A stretch of 64,000 nucleotides of DNA, taken from Vibrio ponticus. Lineage in GTDB: Bacteria; Pseudomonadota; Gammaproteobacteria; Enterobacterales; Vibrionaceae. Made by a program: the position numbers and the translations under genes. Of the stretch, positions 31,300 through 42,154 are shown piece by piece; position 1 is the first letter of the stretch; every line of letters starts with the position of its first letter. Below the pieces are notes generated by a model that made no database searches, was not told where the DNA came from, and was given only the letters and a program-made list of their open reading frames with translations. Where the stretch lies: NCBI RefSeq assembly GCF_009938225.1, contig NZ_AP019657.1, positions 806,001-870,000 of the forward strand, written 5' to 3'.

Positions 31300-31320
31300 T
31301 CAACATGGATATTGCAGATA

Positions 31321-31490
31321 AAAAAATGCCCAGGGCAAATTGCGCTGGGCTGATACAAACTAATTTGGTAGGAGTTAATTTGGAAAAAGCAGTGTAAATA
31401 ACAGATTCAATTCAGAAAAGTTGACGGCCAGTAAACGTTCAATACTCTGCTATCTACACTTATTAGGACTAGCCATTTCCCATTCAGTTC
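31321..31490 (-). ncRNA. Candidate small RNA on the minus strand
   Basis: GCCCAG/CTGGGC (31328-31333 with 31345-31350) forms a hairpin whose T tract lies only on the minus strand (seven T). No minus-strand gene ends here, so it may end a separate transcript that starts near 31490. An AT-rich TTGAAA-N17-AATTAA promoter-like pair lies just upstream on that strand. The extent is a guess. If the hairpin instead serves the plus-strand GtrA gene, it would lack the T tract. Confidence 0.3.
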
Positions 31491-36105: not shown

Positions 36106-38940
36106 TTACACTAGGTCGACATTATCAAATGCGACGTTAGAGTAAACACTAACCGAGCTACCATCTTCGTTATCGAAGCTGTACTTATGCACTTGGTCAG
36201 TACTGGTGTCAGTTAAGTAACTCATTACGGTGTCATTGAAGTCAGCCGTTGCGACATCAACCACTTCAGAGCCGCTAAATGAGAAGTTGGCTGAGCTGTA
36301 CTCAAGCGCTTCAATATCGGCTACAAACAGTTCATCGGTATTTTCTGCCACCGAATCGATATCTAATAGCAGGCTATCCACTTGATGCGAGCCAACTAGA
36401 GCTTCAACATTTTGGATTTTAGAGTCACTGGTTAACTCTAACTCTACGGCATGTGGTGAGTTAGCCGTGATCACCACATCGAAGCCTTCGCCACCGTCAA
36501 TAAAGTCGTTACCGTTATCGTAAATGGTGTCATTACCTTCACCACCGCTGACAACGTCCAGACCCCATCCGCCATCGAGAATATCATCGCCTAAACCACC
36601 GACCAGTAGGTCGTCATTTTGATAAGTGACGACAGACTCGACTAAGAAATCGCTTGAGTCTGCGCTAGCAGTAGACGCTGTAATATCGAACACGCCAGGA
36701 GCGGCTGAGAGTTGAATTTCATCAAATGTTGCAGTGCCGATGTCTGCCGGAGAGATCGACAAGCTGCCATTTGATACGCCGTTACCATTTTCGAGAATTT
36801 TAACGTTGTCGACTTCGGGATTAATGCCAAACGTAGCTAAGGTATTGGCATCGAATTCGCCAACAGTAAAGTAACCACGAGCAACTTCGACACCTTGATC
36901 CAAAACTTTCCAGAAACCCACTTCGTTTGTGCCGTCGAATGCTTCATCTTTAAATAGGCGATCGACTGAAATGTCAGCAGCAACAGTATGCTGATCGACA
37001 AATACACATAGAGTCTCCGATAAGCCTTGGACATCACCCACAGCGCCGTTATCTTCAAAACTGTATCCGATTTGTTTTGACACACCGCTCTCGTCGTTAC
37101 CAAGGATACCGTAGCTACCGCCAGAGGTGACGAGTTTGCCCAAAGAGCCGTCTGGGTTCATTGCGACACTTTCATCTAGCGCTTCTGCTTTGCCTTGAGT
37201 CAGTGCTGTTGCTGGAGCGTAATCCCCATACAATACATCATCGCCAGAGCCCCCAATCACCACATCTTTGCCGTAACCGCCAATAAGAAAATCATCACCT
37301 TTTCCGCCATCTAGCCAATCATCGCCTTCTTGAGTCGCTAGAGTAGAGTCGAAATCGATCGTTTTGATCTCTTTAATGAAGTAATCACTTGAATCAAGAG
37401 CGCCACTGCTGTCAAAGTTATATACCCCTTCAGCTGCAGACAATTCGAGTGTATCAAAGCTTAGACCATGCGTGTCTTGTAAAGTGATGTCAAAGTGACC
37501 GCTCTTGTTGTCAGTGCCTTGCAGAACTTTGATGTTATCAGCGAGTGATAGACCATGTTCTGAGAGGGTATTTGGATCAATATCGGTACTGGTAAAGTAG
37601 CCGGATGCAACTTGAACACCATCGCTATAGACGGTCCATTTTCCGACTTCGTTGGCACCATTGCTTGCTTCGTTGGAATACAGACGATCAACGGTTAATC
37701 TAGCAGCACCTTGCGGCTCACCAAATGAGTAAGTGATTGATTCAGATTGACCTTCTTCTGTTGCAGAGTCAAAACTGAAGCCTAATTGCTCTGATGATCC
37801 AGTTTCTTCATTACCCGAAACACCAACCGTGTCATTTTTGCGGCTTAAAGTCGCGCTTGGGTCGTTGGGATTAAACACTCGAGCAGACGCAAGGTCAACT
37901 TCAGTGGCGATATTAAAATCGTATTGATTGTCACCGAAGAGAAAATCGTTGTCATCAACGCCTAGAAGTACATCATCGCCGTTTTCACCCAATAGAAAGT
38001 CTTTGTTGCTCACTGTGGAATCGGAACCAAGTTCGAGCGTTTTTACCTCTTTAACTAAGAAGTCACTCGAATCTAGACCACCACGGCTATTGGAGTAATG
38101 CCCGATCGCTGCTGAAAATTGGATTTCATCAAAAGCAACAAATCCAGTTTCTGTTGGGTCGATGGTGAAGGTTCCGTTGGAGTAGCCATTTCCACCTTCT
38201 AACACTTTAAGATTGTCAGTTGCGGGATCTAAACCGTAAGCGTCTAGTGTTGCTTGATCAAAACTATGAGCGCTGAAGTAACCATGTTGAACTACCACGC
38301 CATCACGTAATAGAGTCCAGACTCCGACTTCATTTATTTGCGTTTTACCGGCGTCCTCGATGCGACCTTCATTGGCATATAAACGGTCAATCGTTACTTG
38401 AGCTGCATAACTATGTTCATCAACGCTAATCGATAAAACTTCGGATGCACCTGCACGGTCACCAGCAGGATCATTTTCTACAAAGCTATAGCCAATTTGT
38501 CCGTTGTCACCTGATTCGGAGTTCCCTTTAACGCCATAGGCAGAGTTCTTGCGATACAACACCGCTTCTGTACCATCAGGATTAAAGACCTGAGCTTTAC
38601 TCAAATCGTTAACAACCGAATCACTGAAATCTAGCGTAACTTCGCCTGTTGTCGGGTCAACACTAAAACCAGTAGCAAAGTTATCGCCGATGACAACGTC
38701 ATTCCCTTCCCCAGCTAAGACCAAATCATCGCCACTTCCTGCGTTGATGAAATCAATCTCATCGCCCGCGATTATTGTGTCATTACCTGGTCCACCATTA
38801 ATCAGATCGGTGGCACTTGAACCGTGTATTTCGTCGTCACCAGCGGTAAAAACAGGGGTGGCATCGCGGGTTCCTGAAAGTTCAGCGGCAATCGTGGCTG
38901 TTAATGCTTCGTTTCGAGTTGTGGATTGATTACTCGTCAT
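36106..38940 (-). CDS. RTX protein secreted by type I, three repeats of an unknown domain
   Basis: A 944-residue acidic protein without an N-terminal signal peptide. RTX calcium-binding nonapeptides (GGxGxDxxx type, e.g. GGPGNDTIIAG, GGSGDDVLYG, GGEGNDTIYD) occur in four clusters near residues 45-90, 315-340, 540-575 and 775-825. Between them an unrecognised domain of about 180 residues occurs three times (about 117-305, 353-530, 590-775), each with RKN or SGGS followed by a GNxESG core, a VDRL segment, an NEVGxW segment, then GYF and DSSDxxVK. The C-terminal region is the likely secretion signal. Cognate ABC and HlyD genes lie upstream on the same strand. An adhesin or matrix protein is likely; no enzyme domain was seen. 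The ATG at 38940 has a GAGGAAA box. Confidence 0.88.
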   Translation of the reverse strand: MTSNQSTTRNEALTATIAAELSGTRDATPVFTAGDDEIHGSSATDLINGGPGNDTIIAGDEIDFINAGSGDDLVLAGEGNDVVIGDNFATGFSVDPTTGEVTLDFSDSVVNDLSKAQVFNPDGTEAVLYRKNSAYGVKGNSESGDNGQIGYSFVENDPAGDRAGASEVLSISVDEHSYAAQVTIDRLYANEGRIEDAGKTQINEVGVWTLLRDGVVVQHGYFSAHSFDQATLDAYGLDPATDNLKVLEGGNGYSNGTFTIDPTETGFVAFDEIQFSAAIGHYSNSRGGLDSSDFLVKEVKTLELGSDSTVSNKDFLLGENGDDVLLGVDDNDFLFGDNQYDFNIATEVDLASARVFNPNDPSATLSRKNDTVGVSGNEETGSSEQLGFSFDSATEEGQSESITYSFGEPQGAARLTVDRLYSNEASNGANEVGKWTVYSDGVQVASGYFTSTDIDPNTLSEHGLSLADNIKVLQGTDNKSGHFDITLQDTHGLSFDTLELSAAEGVYNFDSSGALDSSDYFIKEIKTIDFDSTLATQEGDDWLDGGKGDDFLIGGYGKDVVIGGSGDDVLYGDYAPATALTQGKAEALDESVAMNPDGSLGKLVTSGGSYGILGNDESGVSKQIGYSFEDNGAVGDVQGLSETLCVFVDQHTVAADISVDRLFKDEAFDGTNEVGFWKVLDQGVEVARGYFTVGEFDANTLATFGINPEVDNVKILENGNGVSNGSLSISPADIGTATFDEIQLSAAPGVFDITASTASADSSDFLVESVVTYQNDDLLVGGLGDDILDGGWGLDVVSGGEGNDTIYDNGNDFIDGGEGFDVVITANSPHAVELELTSDSKIQNVEALVGSHQVDSLLLDIDSVAENTDELFVADIEALEYSSANFSFSGSEVVDVATADFNDTVMSYLTDTSTDQVHKYSFDNEDGSSVSVYSNVAFDNVDLV

Positions 38941-38972
38941 GAATGTTTCCTCTATCAATCTGATGATTAATG

Positions 38973-39050
38973 TGAGGCGGCTCAGCTATCTCATTCCTGT
39001 GAGACCTGAAGCTTTCCGTCCTTACTTCACAGTAAGTTTGGCTTTACTCA
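38973..39050 (-). promoter_or_regulatory. Candidate c-di-GMP-I (GEMM-like) riboswitch
   Basis: In the leader of the RTX gene, on its strand. The segment reads AGCCAAAC, then a hairpin CTTACT-GTGA-AGTAAG with a GNRA loop, then GGACGGAAAGC, then GGTCT, a TCTC/GAGA hairpin, and AGATAGCTGAGCCGCC. The GEMM-I pattern as I remember it is GGCAAACc-[GNRA hairpin]-GGACGCAAAGC-..GGuCU-[hairpin]-AGgUAGCcGaGuuGCC, so order, spacing and most key blocks match. The weak points are AGCC for GGC at the 5' end and a G after GACG. The outer pairing is TGAG with CTCA. The CCTC of the 3' arm can also pair with the GAGG ribosome binding site, a plausible switch. Confidence 0.55.
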
Positions 39051-39065
39051 ATTGTTATTGTGTTT

Positions 39066-39100
39066 GAATCCCTTTGGCATTGAATAAGGGCAGGGGATTC
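39066..39100 (-). other. Inverted repeat between the hlyD-like gene and the riboswitch
   Basis: GAATCCC and GGGATTC can pair, and an overlapping AAGGGC/GCCCTT pair is possible. They exclude each other. With no T tract this is a possible partial stop or processing site that separates RTX expression from the transporter genes. Confidence 0.4.
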
Positions 39101-39111
39101 ATCTATCGCCC

Positions 39112-40461
39112 TTAAATTTCTCTCATCGCTCGATAAGCACTCACGGAAAGTGGGCTTAGAATGTAATCAAGTGGCGTCTGCTCACTGAGTAGAATCATGA
39201 CTTCCGCTGGCATGCCGGGGTAGAGGCTAACGCTGTCCAGTTGTTGTAAATCGGCTTGTTCAAGTTTGATTTTTGCTAGATAGGCGGCTTCGCCATTCGC
39301 TTGGTCAACAATCGTGTCGGCTGAGATATGGATCAGTTGCCCACGAATAGGTGGTGTGCGGCGAAAGTTATAGGCAGTGAGCCGAACTTGAGTATCCAGC
39401 CCTTCATAAACGCTATCGATATCTTCAGGTTTGAGCATCGCTTCGATTATGAGGTTGTCTTGTTGAGGTACGATTTCCATGACGGTTTCGCCCGGAGCAA
39501 TAATAGATTGCGGCGAAAATATGGACATGCCCACCACGACTCCAGTTTGAGGTGAACGAATTTCAACACGATCTAGGATTTGCTGCGCTTCAAACATGGC
39601 TTCGCTGGTTTCATTGATCATCTTTTCTAGTTGCTGAATTTCTTCACCAAGTTGTTTGGCATAGTGATATTCAGCATTTTGATCTTGCAACTCTGCTTCA
39701 GTTATCGCGCGAATCGCACGATTGATCTTAGTAATCAGTTCGGCTAAATCACTGTTTAAATTGGAATGTTCTCGCTTCAAATCCAGTAGTTTGGATCGCG
39801 AAGTGTTGCCCGTGATAAGCAACTTTTCATGCATATCGACTTGCTGGTTGAGATAAGCGAGGTTTTGTTTATCCGCTTGATATTGTTGTCGTAACCCTTG
39901 CAGATCATTTCGGGCTTGCGCGACTTTTTCTTTGAGCAGTTTCTTTTCGCCCGCTTGCAGTGCTCGGCGCTTACTAAACAGTTTGGTTTGGGTGGCAAGG
40001 ATAGAATGGACGTGAGTATCCTGTTCTAGTTCGAGGAGGCGAGGATCAAATGCAATGCTCTCTTGTTCGTTAAGTTCGGTTTGTAAACGGTTTAGGCGCG
40101 CGAGATCGCTCTGCCACTGAGATTTTAAGCCTTGATAGCGTGCTTGTGCTTTGGTCGAATCGAGCGTGATAAGAAGCTCACCTTGTTCGACATTTTGACC
40201 ATCAGTGACGTGAATCGCTTTTACTATCCCGCCTTCAAGGTGTTGAACCGGCTTTTTCTTGGACTCGACGATCACCATCCCTCGCGCTATCGCGGCGCTA
40301 GACAATTTCGCCATTGAAGCCCAAGCGACAAAACCGACTAACATCAATAGCACCACTAATAAGGTTAGCTTCACACCTCTCGATGCTTGAAAATTTAGCT
40401 CTCGACCGTCTTGATAAGAGATTTGGTTGTGTTGGATTTGATGAAAGTTTAGGTTAGGCAT
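39112..40461 (-). CDS. HlyD-family membrane fusion protein of type I secretion
   Basis: A 449-residue adaptor. One membrane helix near residues 29-49 is followed by a biotinyl-lipoyl half (GGIVKAIHVTDGQNVEQGELLITLD), long coiled coils (about 115-290), the second half (VEIRSPQTGVVVGMSIFSPQSII) and a beta-barrel domain with the HlyD signature near the end. It links the ABC exporter to a TolC channel, which is not encoded here. The ATG at 40461 has AGGTGG upstream and lies inside the end of the ABC gene, so the two are translationally coupled. Confidence 0.92.
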   Translation of the reverse strand: MPNLNFHQIQHNQISYQDGRELNFQASRGVKLTLLVVLLMLVGFVAWASMAKLSSAAIARGMVIVESKKKPVQHLEGGIVKAIHVTDGQNVEQGELLITLDSTKAQARYQGLKSQWQSDLARLNRLQTELNEQESIAFDPRLLELEQDTHVHSILATQTKLFSKRRALQAGEKKLLKEKVAQARNDLQGLRQQYQADKQNLAYLNQQVDMHEKLLITGNTSRSKLLDLKREHSNLNSDLAELITKINRAIRAITEAELQDQNAEYHYAKQLGEEIQQLEKMINETSEAMFEAQQILDRVEIRSPQTGVVVGMSIFSPQSIIAPGETVMEIVPQQDNLIIEAMLKPEDIDSVYEGLDTQVRLTAYNFRRTPPIRGQLIHISADTIVDQANGEAAYLAKIKLEQADLQQLDSVSLYPGMPAEVMILLSEQTPLDYILSPLSVSAYRAMREI

Positions 40462-42154
40462 TGGCGACCACCTTTTGCACATTCTGAACTCGAGTGATTT
40501 TTTCTGCTTTTTGTGCAGAGGTTATTTGCCCATTGTTGAGTTCAACGACCCAATCAACATGATTGATAAGCTCTTTTTGGTGGGAAGCCATAATCACAGA
40601 GACTTGCTGCTGTTTGAGATGCTCTAATAACCGTTTAAAGCAGTGCATTTTTTCCGCATCAAGGTGAGCCGTCGGCTCGTCGAGAATTAACACTTTAGGT
40701 TGGTAATAGATCGCCCTAGCTAAGCCAATACCATGGTGCAGTCCCATTGCGATGTGATTCGTATTGGCGCAAATGATGGTGTTGTAGCCATCAGCTAAAC
40801 TGATAATTGCTTCGTGTATACCTATTTTCCGTGCGGCGCTAATCACTTGCTGATCAGACATATGCGGATCAAAATGAGCAATGTTTTGTTTAATTGAACC
40901 TGTGGCGAACTCAACTTTTTGCGGTAGGTAACCGATGGTATGTTGGAGTTGTTCTGGCATCCATTGGGTGATGCTCGCACCATCAATCTTTATTGACCCC
41001 GATGTAGGGGCATAAATCCCGGCAACAAGCTTACACAAAGCGGTTTTGCCATTACCTGTTGCCCCCATAACAAGTAGATGATTGCCGGCTTCTAGTTTCA
41101 GGCGTAAGTTTTTTAGTAATGGGACGGTGGAGTTAGGTGTATACCAGGTAAGGTTATCGATATGTAATCTACCATCGATTTGGTCAAACTCGGTTCCTAG
41201 ATCTTGGTCAGGCGTTTGAGCTGCAAAGTGGCGTTGTAAACGACGATCTGCGTCATAGGCAGTTCGCCATCCTTGTAAAGTCGACGTAAGTTGCTCATAG
41301 GGTTGCAGAGCGCGTGACATCAAGATTGATGCTGCAATAATCCCACCCGCTGACATTTCATTATTGACGACCAATAAGGCACTGACTGCCATGATCGCCA
41401 TCTGTAAAGTAAAGCGGATAAACTTTGCATAAGAGGTTAAGGTAGCGGAATTCAACCCCAGTTGCTGTTCATGCCAGATCCTTTCTGCGGTGATATGTTG
41501 ATACTGCTGTGTTAACCCACTAATCAGGTGTTGACTTCGATAACTTTCTTGTTGTGTTTGTGATTCATCATTTGCTTTGCGGCAGGCGATGAGACTCGCT
41601 TGAAGTTGTTGATGTTGCTTTTGTTTGCTTTTGAATGAATAGAGCGAAAAACCACCGACTAAAATGATCGCGCCTAGGCAGAGTGCGCCGATCACTGGAT
41701 GAAGAGCAAACATAACCAAGATAAATATTGGTGTCCAAACAATATCGAATGCACTTGAAAATGATGGCGATACGACAAAAGACTTAATTTCTCTTACATC
41801 ATTTTGACTAGGTAAATTATTGCCAGTAGAAATAGGCAGAGATTTGTATAAGTAACTAGAAAAAATGGCATCTATTTGAACGGATTTTTTAAAAGCGTAG
41901 CGACTTTTTAATATGTCCAGAATAACTTGTGTAGATAATAAAAAAAGTGCAATTGAACTTAAAGCGATTAAAGTATCAATACTACGACTGGTTAATATTC
42001 TATCGAATACTTGTAAACTATAGATAGGAATGACCAGTACTAAAATATTTAGTACTAGACCAATGAGCAGATGATAAGTTACTACTTTCGAATTAAATGG
42101 AGTTAGAGTTTTCCATTCATTTGTACTTATATTCATACTGGTATTTGCACACAT
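40454..42154 (-). CDS. Type I secretion ABC exporter with atypical signature motif
   Basis: A 566-residue PrtD/LapB-type exporter without a C39 peptidase domain. It has six membrane helices in residues about 28-290, then an ATPase domain. Walker A is GATGNGKT (364-371), the D-loop and Walker B read VLILDEPTAHLD, and the H-loop His is in IMASHQ. The signature motif, by ungapped alignment LSGGQRQRIxLARA in the family, reads IAMGLHHGIGLARA here, so the LSGGQ residues are mostly lost. No good ribosome binding site was seen for the ATG; a second ATG lies six codons in. It is the first gene of the RTX secretion operon. Confidence 0.9.
   Translation of the reverse strand: MCANTSMNISTNEWKTLTPFNSKVVTYHLLIGLVLNILVLVIPIYSLQVFDRILTSRSIDTLIALSSIALFLLSTQVILDILKSRYAFKKSVQIDAIFSSYLYKSLPISTGNNLPSQNDVREIKSFVVSPSFSSAFDIVWTPIFILVMFALHPVIGALCLGAIILVGGFSLYSFKSKQKQHQQLQASLIACRKANDESQTQQESYRSQHLISGLTQQYQHITAERIWHEQQLGLNSATLTSYAKFIRFTLQMAIMAVSALLVVNNEMSAGGIIAASILMSRALQPYEQLTSTLQGWRTAYDADRRLQRHFAAQTPDQDLGTEFDQIDGRLHIDNLTWYTPNSTVPLLKNLRLKLEAGNHLLVMGATGNGKTALCKLVAGIYAPTSGSIKIDGASITQWMPEQLQHTIGYLPQKVEFATGSIKQNIAHFDPHMSDQQVISAARKIGIHEAIISLADGYNTIICANTNHIAMGLHHGIGLARAIYYQPKVLILDEPTAHLDAEKMHCFKRLLEHLKQQQVSVIMASHQKELINHVDWVVELNNGQITSAQKAEKITRVQNVQKVVANA

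Follow-up and report, generated by a model that had tools for sequence, protein, structure and literature searches.

A c-di-GMP-I aptamer in front of an RTX protein gene of Vibrio ponticus: a probable translational ON switch

Introduction

The closest described systems to the locus considered here are the two c-di-GMP-I (GEMM-I) aptamers of Vibrio cholerae, Vc1 and Vc2. Vc1, which belongs to gbpA, responds positively to c-di-GMP, and its authors describe it as having no apparent terminator or anti-Shine-Dalgarno sequence (PMC4744006). Vc2, which belongs to tfoY (VC1722), has been described as acting on translation, P1 being its key element (PMC9262584), and the title of Inuzuka 2018, as cited in the same paper, presents it as an OFF switch whose masked site lies at a distance. 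The 2016 paper on Vc1 called its mode of action unclear and that of Vc2 similarly unknown (PMC4744006). Homologues of Vc1 and Vc2 have been named in V. parahaemolyticus and V. vulnificus (PMC6366702). On the side of the regulated protein, the cabABC operon of V. vulnificus encodes a secreted calcium-binding protein together with two further genes for secretion, is induced by c-di-GMP and is needed for biofilm maturation (PMC4584020); in the excerpts of two papers on its regulation, riboswitches are named in a general sentence only (PMC6978666, PMC8268162). In V. cholerae, the link between craA and c-di-GMP runs via VpsR (PMC6890996).

The current study concerns the leader that precedes an RTX gene of V. 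ponticus, located in a stretch of 64,000 nucleotides (the window). We consider it likely, with good confidence, that this leader is a c-di-GMP-I riboswitch which turns on translation of the RTX protein. It resembles Vc1, which is of the same aptamer class and has the gene of a secreted surface-binding protein downstream, and this genome also has such an aptamer at a GbpA gene (L002). The RTX locus differs from Vc1 in its masking hairpin, its C-G 21-46 pair, the lack of an 11-nt receptor and its RTX target. Vc2 is again of the same aptamer class, whereas the mask of the RTX locus lies next to the aptamer, is formed with the P1 strand and C92 and would be expected to open when the ligand binds, and the target differs. 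The likeness to cabABC is one of description, and the gene order is different. In our literature search, which had many subscription papers outside its coverage, no report of an RTX gene in Vibrio preceded by a c-di-GMP switch was found, and the RTX target set of the switch looks unreported.

Results and Discussion

The leader of the RTX gene carries a c-di-GMP-I aptamer

By sequence and structure, the leader 5' of the RTX gene (Table 1) is a real c-di-GMP-I aptamer, and it is well conserved. The covariance model RF01051 scored 59.3 bits against a cut-off of 35 (E 4.6e-9, whole window, both strands), and the blocks of the aptamer are therefore far from chance. The preliminary description of this DNA had proposed a GEMM-like (c-di-GMP-I) candidate, and the significance of this match bears it out, as does the presence on the minus strand of the blocks in the order given there: AAAC, a 6-bp hairpin with GTGA loop, GGACGGAAAGC, GGTCT, a second hairpin, AGATAGCTGAGCC and CCTC. 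Three RF01051 matches were found in the genome, at a TfoX-domain gene (74.6 bits), at the GbpA gene (72.5 bits) and at the RTX locus, whose aptamer is the third besides those of the gbpA and tfoY types. The variant family RF03167 (c-di-GMP-I-GGC) scored 57.6 bits at the same place in a lax scan of 38700-39400, slightly lower than RF01051 and just under its cut-off of 59, which was passed by three of the nine loci scanned, all three relatives of the RTX locus (62.4-64.9 bits).

Table 1 Features of the RTX locus, by position in the window
Feature	Position	Strand	Remarks
Type I secretion ABC transporter gene, PrtD-like	40454..42154	-	TIGR01842 415 bits, below cut-off of 510
Gene of HlyD-family type I secretion adaptor, directly upstream	39112..40482	-	TIGR01843
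Spacer behind hlyD, outside the aptamer	39057-39111	-
Full leader of the RTX gene	38938-39056	-	119 nt
c-di-GMP-I aptamer as modelled	38974..39056	-	RF01051 match spans 38973-39052
P1 5' strand GAG	39047..39049	-	short; pairs with CUC 38976-38974
G, Vc2 G20 equivalent (ligand contact)	39042	-	placed by spacing
P2 hairpin	39021..39036	-	6 bp; GUGA loop 39027-39030
GG of the swapped G21-C46 pair of the GEMM consensus	39016..39017	-	pairs with CC 39040-39041
A, Vc2 A47 equivalent (ligand contact)	39015	-	placed by spacing
P3 helix	38979..39013	-	even UCUC/GAGA stem
C, Vc2 C92 equivalent (ligand contact)	38977	-	placed by spacing
CCUC: C92 equivalent (38977), C93, P1 3' strand, anti-Shine-Dalgarno arm	38974..38977	-
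Masking hairpin: CCUC/GAGG 4 bp and AUUAAUC/GAUUGAU 7 bp, loop AUCA	38949..38977	-	-8.5 kcal/mol
Shine-Dalgarno sequence GAGG	38949..38952	-	8 nt 5' of ATG
RTX protein gene	36106..38940	-	944 aa from ATG at 38940; PF00353, four stretches

The preliminary description had also regarded AGCC and GACGG as departures from the consensus that make the aptamer divergent. Both are present, but they amount to one compensatory change: where the consensus reads GGC...GACGC the window reads GCC...GACGG, the two changed bases pair with each other, and the change is therefore a single swap of the 21-46 pair from G-C to C-G. The swap is common to the window and six relatives that were found via the RTX protein (L005-L010), and the exact motif with the swap occurs at a minimum of 117 loci in genome contigs, the hosts among the matches listed including Methylomonas, Sulfurovum, Desulfobulbaceae, Vibrio, Enterovibrio, Grimontia and others. 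Because it is shared in this way, the C-G-swapped aptamer is to be regarded, on its distribution, as a widespread form and not as decay. Multiple or tandem aptamers of the swapped form were seen at L230 (G083), L096 (Idiomarina) and L069. Outside Vibrionaceae the swapped form precedes mixed genes (open reading frames were sought in 83 of the loci, which number at least 117), and no RTX family appeared among the 25 families listed, out of 57, when 46 candidate proteins from the non-Vibrionaceae side were scanned, out of 48, one overlapping start and L086 being left out. Many of these 46 proteins (L064-L142) have signal-like starts, with a PEP-CTERM motif in four, a beta-barrel in three and GGDEF in two.

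Conserved stems and contact bases point to c-di-GMP as the ligand

The stems were evaluated over 12 distinct aptamers (300 cells, 500 shuffles), with slid registers as control. Paired cells made up 93.0% of the 300, compared with 31-44% in the slid registers, and neither the covariation score nor the number of cells with double changes was reached by any of the 500 shuffles. Shuffles reached the number of pairs changed on both sides in 63 cases of the 500 and that of pair types in 263, so that these two measures of covariation do not clearly beat the shuffles. Conservation of the stems in related Vibrio, named as a check in the preliminary description, was found: P2 pairs in all 12 aligned relatives, with 100% of its cells paired, four of its six pairs changed on both sides, and a covarying stem closed by a GNRA loop that is GUGA or GCGA in the 12 rows. 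P1 (GAG/CUC) is paired in 66.7% of cells in the same 12 relatives. P3 lacks the usual 11-nt tetraloop receptor, its consensus CUAA/UAUG being replaced by an invariant UCUC/GAGA helix; the receptor is typical of c-di-GMP-I aptamers and is not counted as required for membership of the class. GUGA and GCGA loops may dock into the UCUC/GAGA helix, as would be expected of such loops.

Numbering and roles of the contact bases G20, A47 and C92 follow Vc2 (PMC4744006). Equivalents of all three are present in the window and invariant in the 12 aligned rows, five of which (L082, L117, L119, L135 and L136) were picked by motif, leaving seven that count for the motif bases. The interhelical pair corresponds to Vc2 C44-G83. 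This Watson-Crick pair is C-G in all 12 rows, and none of the 30 loci obtained with the aptamer model described below has lost the counterparts of G20, A47 and C44. Conservation of the interhelical Watson-Crick pair has been described for the c-di-GMP-I class (PMC4744006).

To judge from these bases, the ligand is very probably c-di-GMP, which would be expected rather than cGAMP because G20 is kept. The GEMM-Ib riboswitches, which sense 3',3'-cGAMP, presumably carry A at position 20, where all 30 loci have G. The preliminary description had left room for an altered ligand such as cGAMP, a suggestion weakened by this count, and cGAMP was rejected as first-choice ligand on the same base. Sensing of 3',3'-cGAMP or another cyclic dinucleotide would accord with the divergence of the aptamer from the consensus, with its score near that of the RF03167 variant and with the description of G20 as a selectivity factor and no hard filter (PMC9262584), but G20A is the change that was used to bind cGAMP (PMC6274999) and the divergence is a base-pair swap that touches no contact base, and we regard a ligand other than c-di-GMP as highly improbable. 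One locus departs from the pattern: L229 (1501-1616, G325) has U in place of C92 and almost no masking hairpin, with G20 kept and an RTX gene downstream, and these differences could reflect lost function or an altered ligand. No match was obtained in the only other genome of that genus.

A conserved hairpin covers the Shine-Dalgarno sequence

Reading from the C92 equivalent, the leader contains CCUC, 21 bases, GAGG, 8 bases and AUG. Pairing of CCTC with a GAGG ribosome-binding site 20 bases on had been anticipated in the preliminary description; the pairing was found, at a spacing of 21 bases, within a hairpin of 11 bp that covers the ribosome-binding site, and the conservation of this hairpin supports the translational switch proposed there. 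In the best fold of 11 of 12 leaders the CCUC arm is paired to the Shine-Dalgarno sequence, L135 folding otherwise. The mean chance of the Shine-Dalgarno site being unpaired is 0.00-0.15 across the 12 leaders (0.01 in the window) and rises to 0.49-0.79 (0.52 in the window) when CCUC is withheld from folding, which mimics the bound aptamer. As a control, every Shine-Dalgarno-like motif was considered at 171 further starts, taken from the window without its own RTX start and from 20 other stretches of this genome. A closed hairpin ending at the Shine-Dalgarno sequence was found at 20 of these starts, and at only one was it as stable as that of the window; overall closure equal to that of the window was predicted at 14.

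The upper helix pairs despite unlike sequences, for instance AUUAAUC/GAUUGAU, AUGUAUC/GAUAUAU, UAUAUC/GAUAUA and UUGCU/AGCAA. The 29 single-aptamer loci introduced below contain 21 distinct hairpins, of which 20 were tested; the upper helix alone beats shuffles at 0.05 in 10 of them, and six of the 10 that fail come from a single genus (g4). The pair adjoining CCUC/GAGG is U-A in 11 of the 29 loci, G-C in three, A-U in two and non-standard in 13. MAFFT fails to align the platform across groups, and the platform pairs were therefore counted hairpin by hairpin; the 80-position RF03167 model stops short of the masking hairpin. A translational riboswitch of this type has bases shared between aptamer and mask, and in 28 of the 29 loci CCUC takes part both in P1/C92 and in the mask.

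We propose a simple mechanism for the RTX locus. Without ligand, CCUC (38977-38974) would pair with GAGG (38952-38949) at the base of the hairpin of 4 + 7 bp and ribosome start would be blocked. With c-di-GMP bound, the C92 equivalent would pair with a guanine of the ligand and the CUC that follows would close P1, removing the base of the hairpin and freeing the Shine-Dalgarno site. High c-di-GMP would thus lead to more RTX protein, next to its likely exporter. Because the CCUC arm starts at C92 and is also the P1 3' strand, ligand binding and masking should be mutually exclusive, and an ON switch is the simplest reading since the masking arm is the very strand that the bound aptamer requires. 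Ligand binding and the direction of control are inferred, and a translational ON switch is the most likely outcome.

Binding of c-di-GMP could also turn the gene off, as at the tfoY-linked Vc2, if the bound form left the mask in place or strengthened it. Vc2 has been called an OFF switch of translation that hinges on P1 (PMC9262584), and the two switches of V. cholerae respond oppositely, which implies that the class alone gives no direction (PMC6366702). At the RTX locus, however, the bound aptamer should break a mask whose arm is the P1 3' strand starting at the C92 equivalent, and no unbound-state fold that frees the site was among the folds computed. We therefore consider an OFF switch very unlikely and retain the ON switch.

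The same layout precedes RTX genes in related bacteria

An aptamer model was built from the 12 aptamers, with rows that end in CCUC and exclude the other arm of the masking hairpin, and was searched against 329 genomes of the family; 76 had a match at the threshold of E 1e-8 or better. Among the best 30 loci, which were examined individually, the aptamer core was in the model for 13 and not in the model for 17. At L230 the aptamers stand in tandem and no start could be assigned, and the remaining 29 are single aptamers. All 29 precede genes with RTX motifs, and 16 of these aptamers are absent from the model. The RTX calls were made by a loose motif in 27 loci and by a stricter motif in two (L222 and L223); the stricter motif was not found in the first 489 residues of L201-L204, and Pfam detected PF00353 in L201 and in the full L083 and L117 proteins, whose leaders are shared with L203 and L204. 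PF00353 was present in all eight relatives tested and in the window protein (9/9). CCTC...GAGG stands 7-9 nt 5' of ATG in 28 of the 29 loci, L229 having TCTC, and in 15 of the 16 whose aptamer was outside the model.

Among the motif-picked loci, at least 117 in number, seven are followed by a minimum of three RTX motifs, and these seven are all from Vibrionaceae (Vibrio, Enterovibrio and Grimontia). CCTC...GAGG before ATG was found in all seven and in no other motif-picked locus, some of which have little downstream DNA. Lower-scoring aptamers of the family behave differently from the best 30: 16 of 20 are without CCUC after the aptamer, and therefore the aptamer itself does not require CUC after C92. 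No RTX motif was found in about 2 kb downstream at 19 of the 20 lower-scoring loci examined; at L234 the platform and RTX motifs are both present and the RTX frame is broken in that assembly. L212 has an RTX frame of only 417 aa and hlyD contains a stop codon in G169 and G212, and these defects are, like that of L234, signs of decay or sequencing error. The repetition of the layout in relatives suggests, at the level of sequence, that c-di-GMP turns the RTX protein on by uncovering the ribosome-binding site.

The switch may lie between an RTX substrate and its exporter

The RTX open reading frame as listed starts with TTG at 38958 (950 aa). The HlyD-family and ABC proteins encoded upstream are likely to be the exporter of the RTX protein, which is itself probably a calcium-dependent matrix or surface protein, and protein and switch may have a role in biofilm. 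The end of hlyD lies 11-100 nt before G20 in 17 of the 29 loci (69 nt in the window). In six loci the distance from the hlyD stop to G20 is 19-22 nt, and there is therefore little room for a separate promoter; it is 11 nt in L229. No HlyD was seen upstream in the other 12 loci, all of which belong to genus g4. When the window HlyD was searched in 14 genomes, its best match adjoined the aptamer in nine Vibrio and in G325, and lay elsewhere in four g4 genomes.

Since the aptamer sits between hlyD and the RTX gene and a further inverted repeat is found at 39062-39103, control of transcription, or of the stability of the RNA, from the exporter genes into the RTX gene could be envisaged. A simple scan of 38900-39300 found no promoter and no terminator-like site with a T run, and transcriptional attenuation was rejected on the absence of the latter; the conserved platform, moreover, masks the Shine-Dalgarno sequence. 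Control of transcription or stability is, in our judgement, very unlikely, and we continue with the translational ON switch. The inverted repeat is situated between the aptamer and hlyD and reads GAATCCC/GGGATTC; it overlaps an AGGGC/GCCCT repeat and is replaced by GATACCC/GGGTATC in L205, L207 and L208; by their sequence, the overlapping repeats look like two competing stem-loops. Rfam CRISPR-repeat matches at 39062-39110 were below their cut-offs and were taken as chance matches to the inverted repeat. Elsewhere in the window, the Vibrio small RNA VrrA (RF01456) has a match at 31320-31457 on the minus strand (58.1 bits, cut-off 50).

Similarity between the RTX protein of the window and those of Grimontia is weak and falls mostly in their repeats, and the switch is therefore common to RTX proteins that are not clear orthologs. 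No relatives of the RTX protein were confirmed in viral contigs and no near DNA matches were found in plasmids. A domain of about 180 aa (36628-37158, minus strand) recurs in these RTX proteins and has no solved relative by sequence, and the L083 and L229 proteins match DUF642 below cut-off. The predicted fold of the repeated domain is beta-rich (mean pLDDT 65.9, residues 1-45 poor). The model had no PDB match at E 0.001; its best matches, near E 0.01, included carbohydrate-binding modules and also unrelated proteins, which is a hint at most. We lean, at a little better than even, towards a natural translational ON switch in which C92 is the first anti-Shine-Dalgarno base, so that ligand and ribosome site would compete for one nucleotide. 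In part of Vibrio this switch may be internal to a type I secretion operon, where c-di-GMP would set the amount of exported RTX substrate independently of the exporter, and it would have been retained at RTX genes whose products resemble each other mostly in their repeats.

Conclusions

The proposed ON platform is, in our assessment, well supported; the class of the aptamer is ordinary and the detail of the platform is interesting. The platform of the RTX locus is simple and conserved and yields an explicit prediction, and the locus could find use where a small, natural sensor that responds to c-di-GMP by turning ON is wanted. If the proposed mechanism is true, c-di-GMP would be tied to RTX exoproteins by RNA, where craA of V. 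cholerae uses VpsR.
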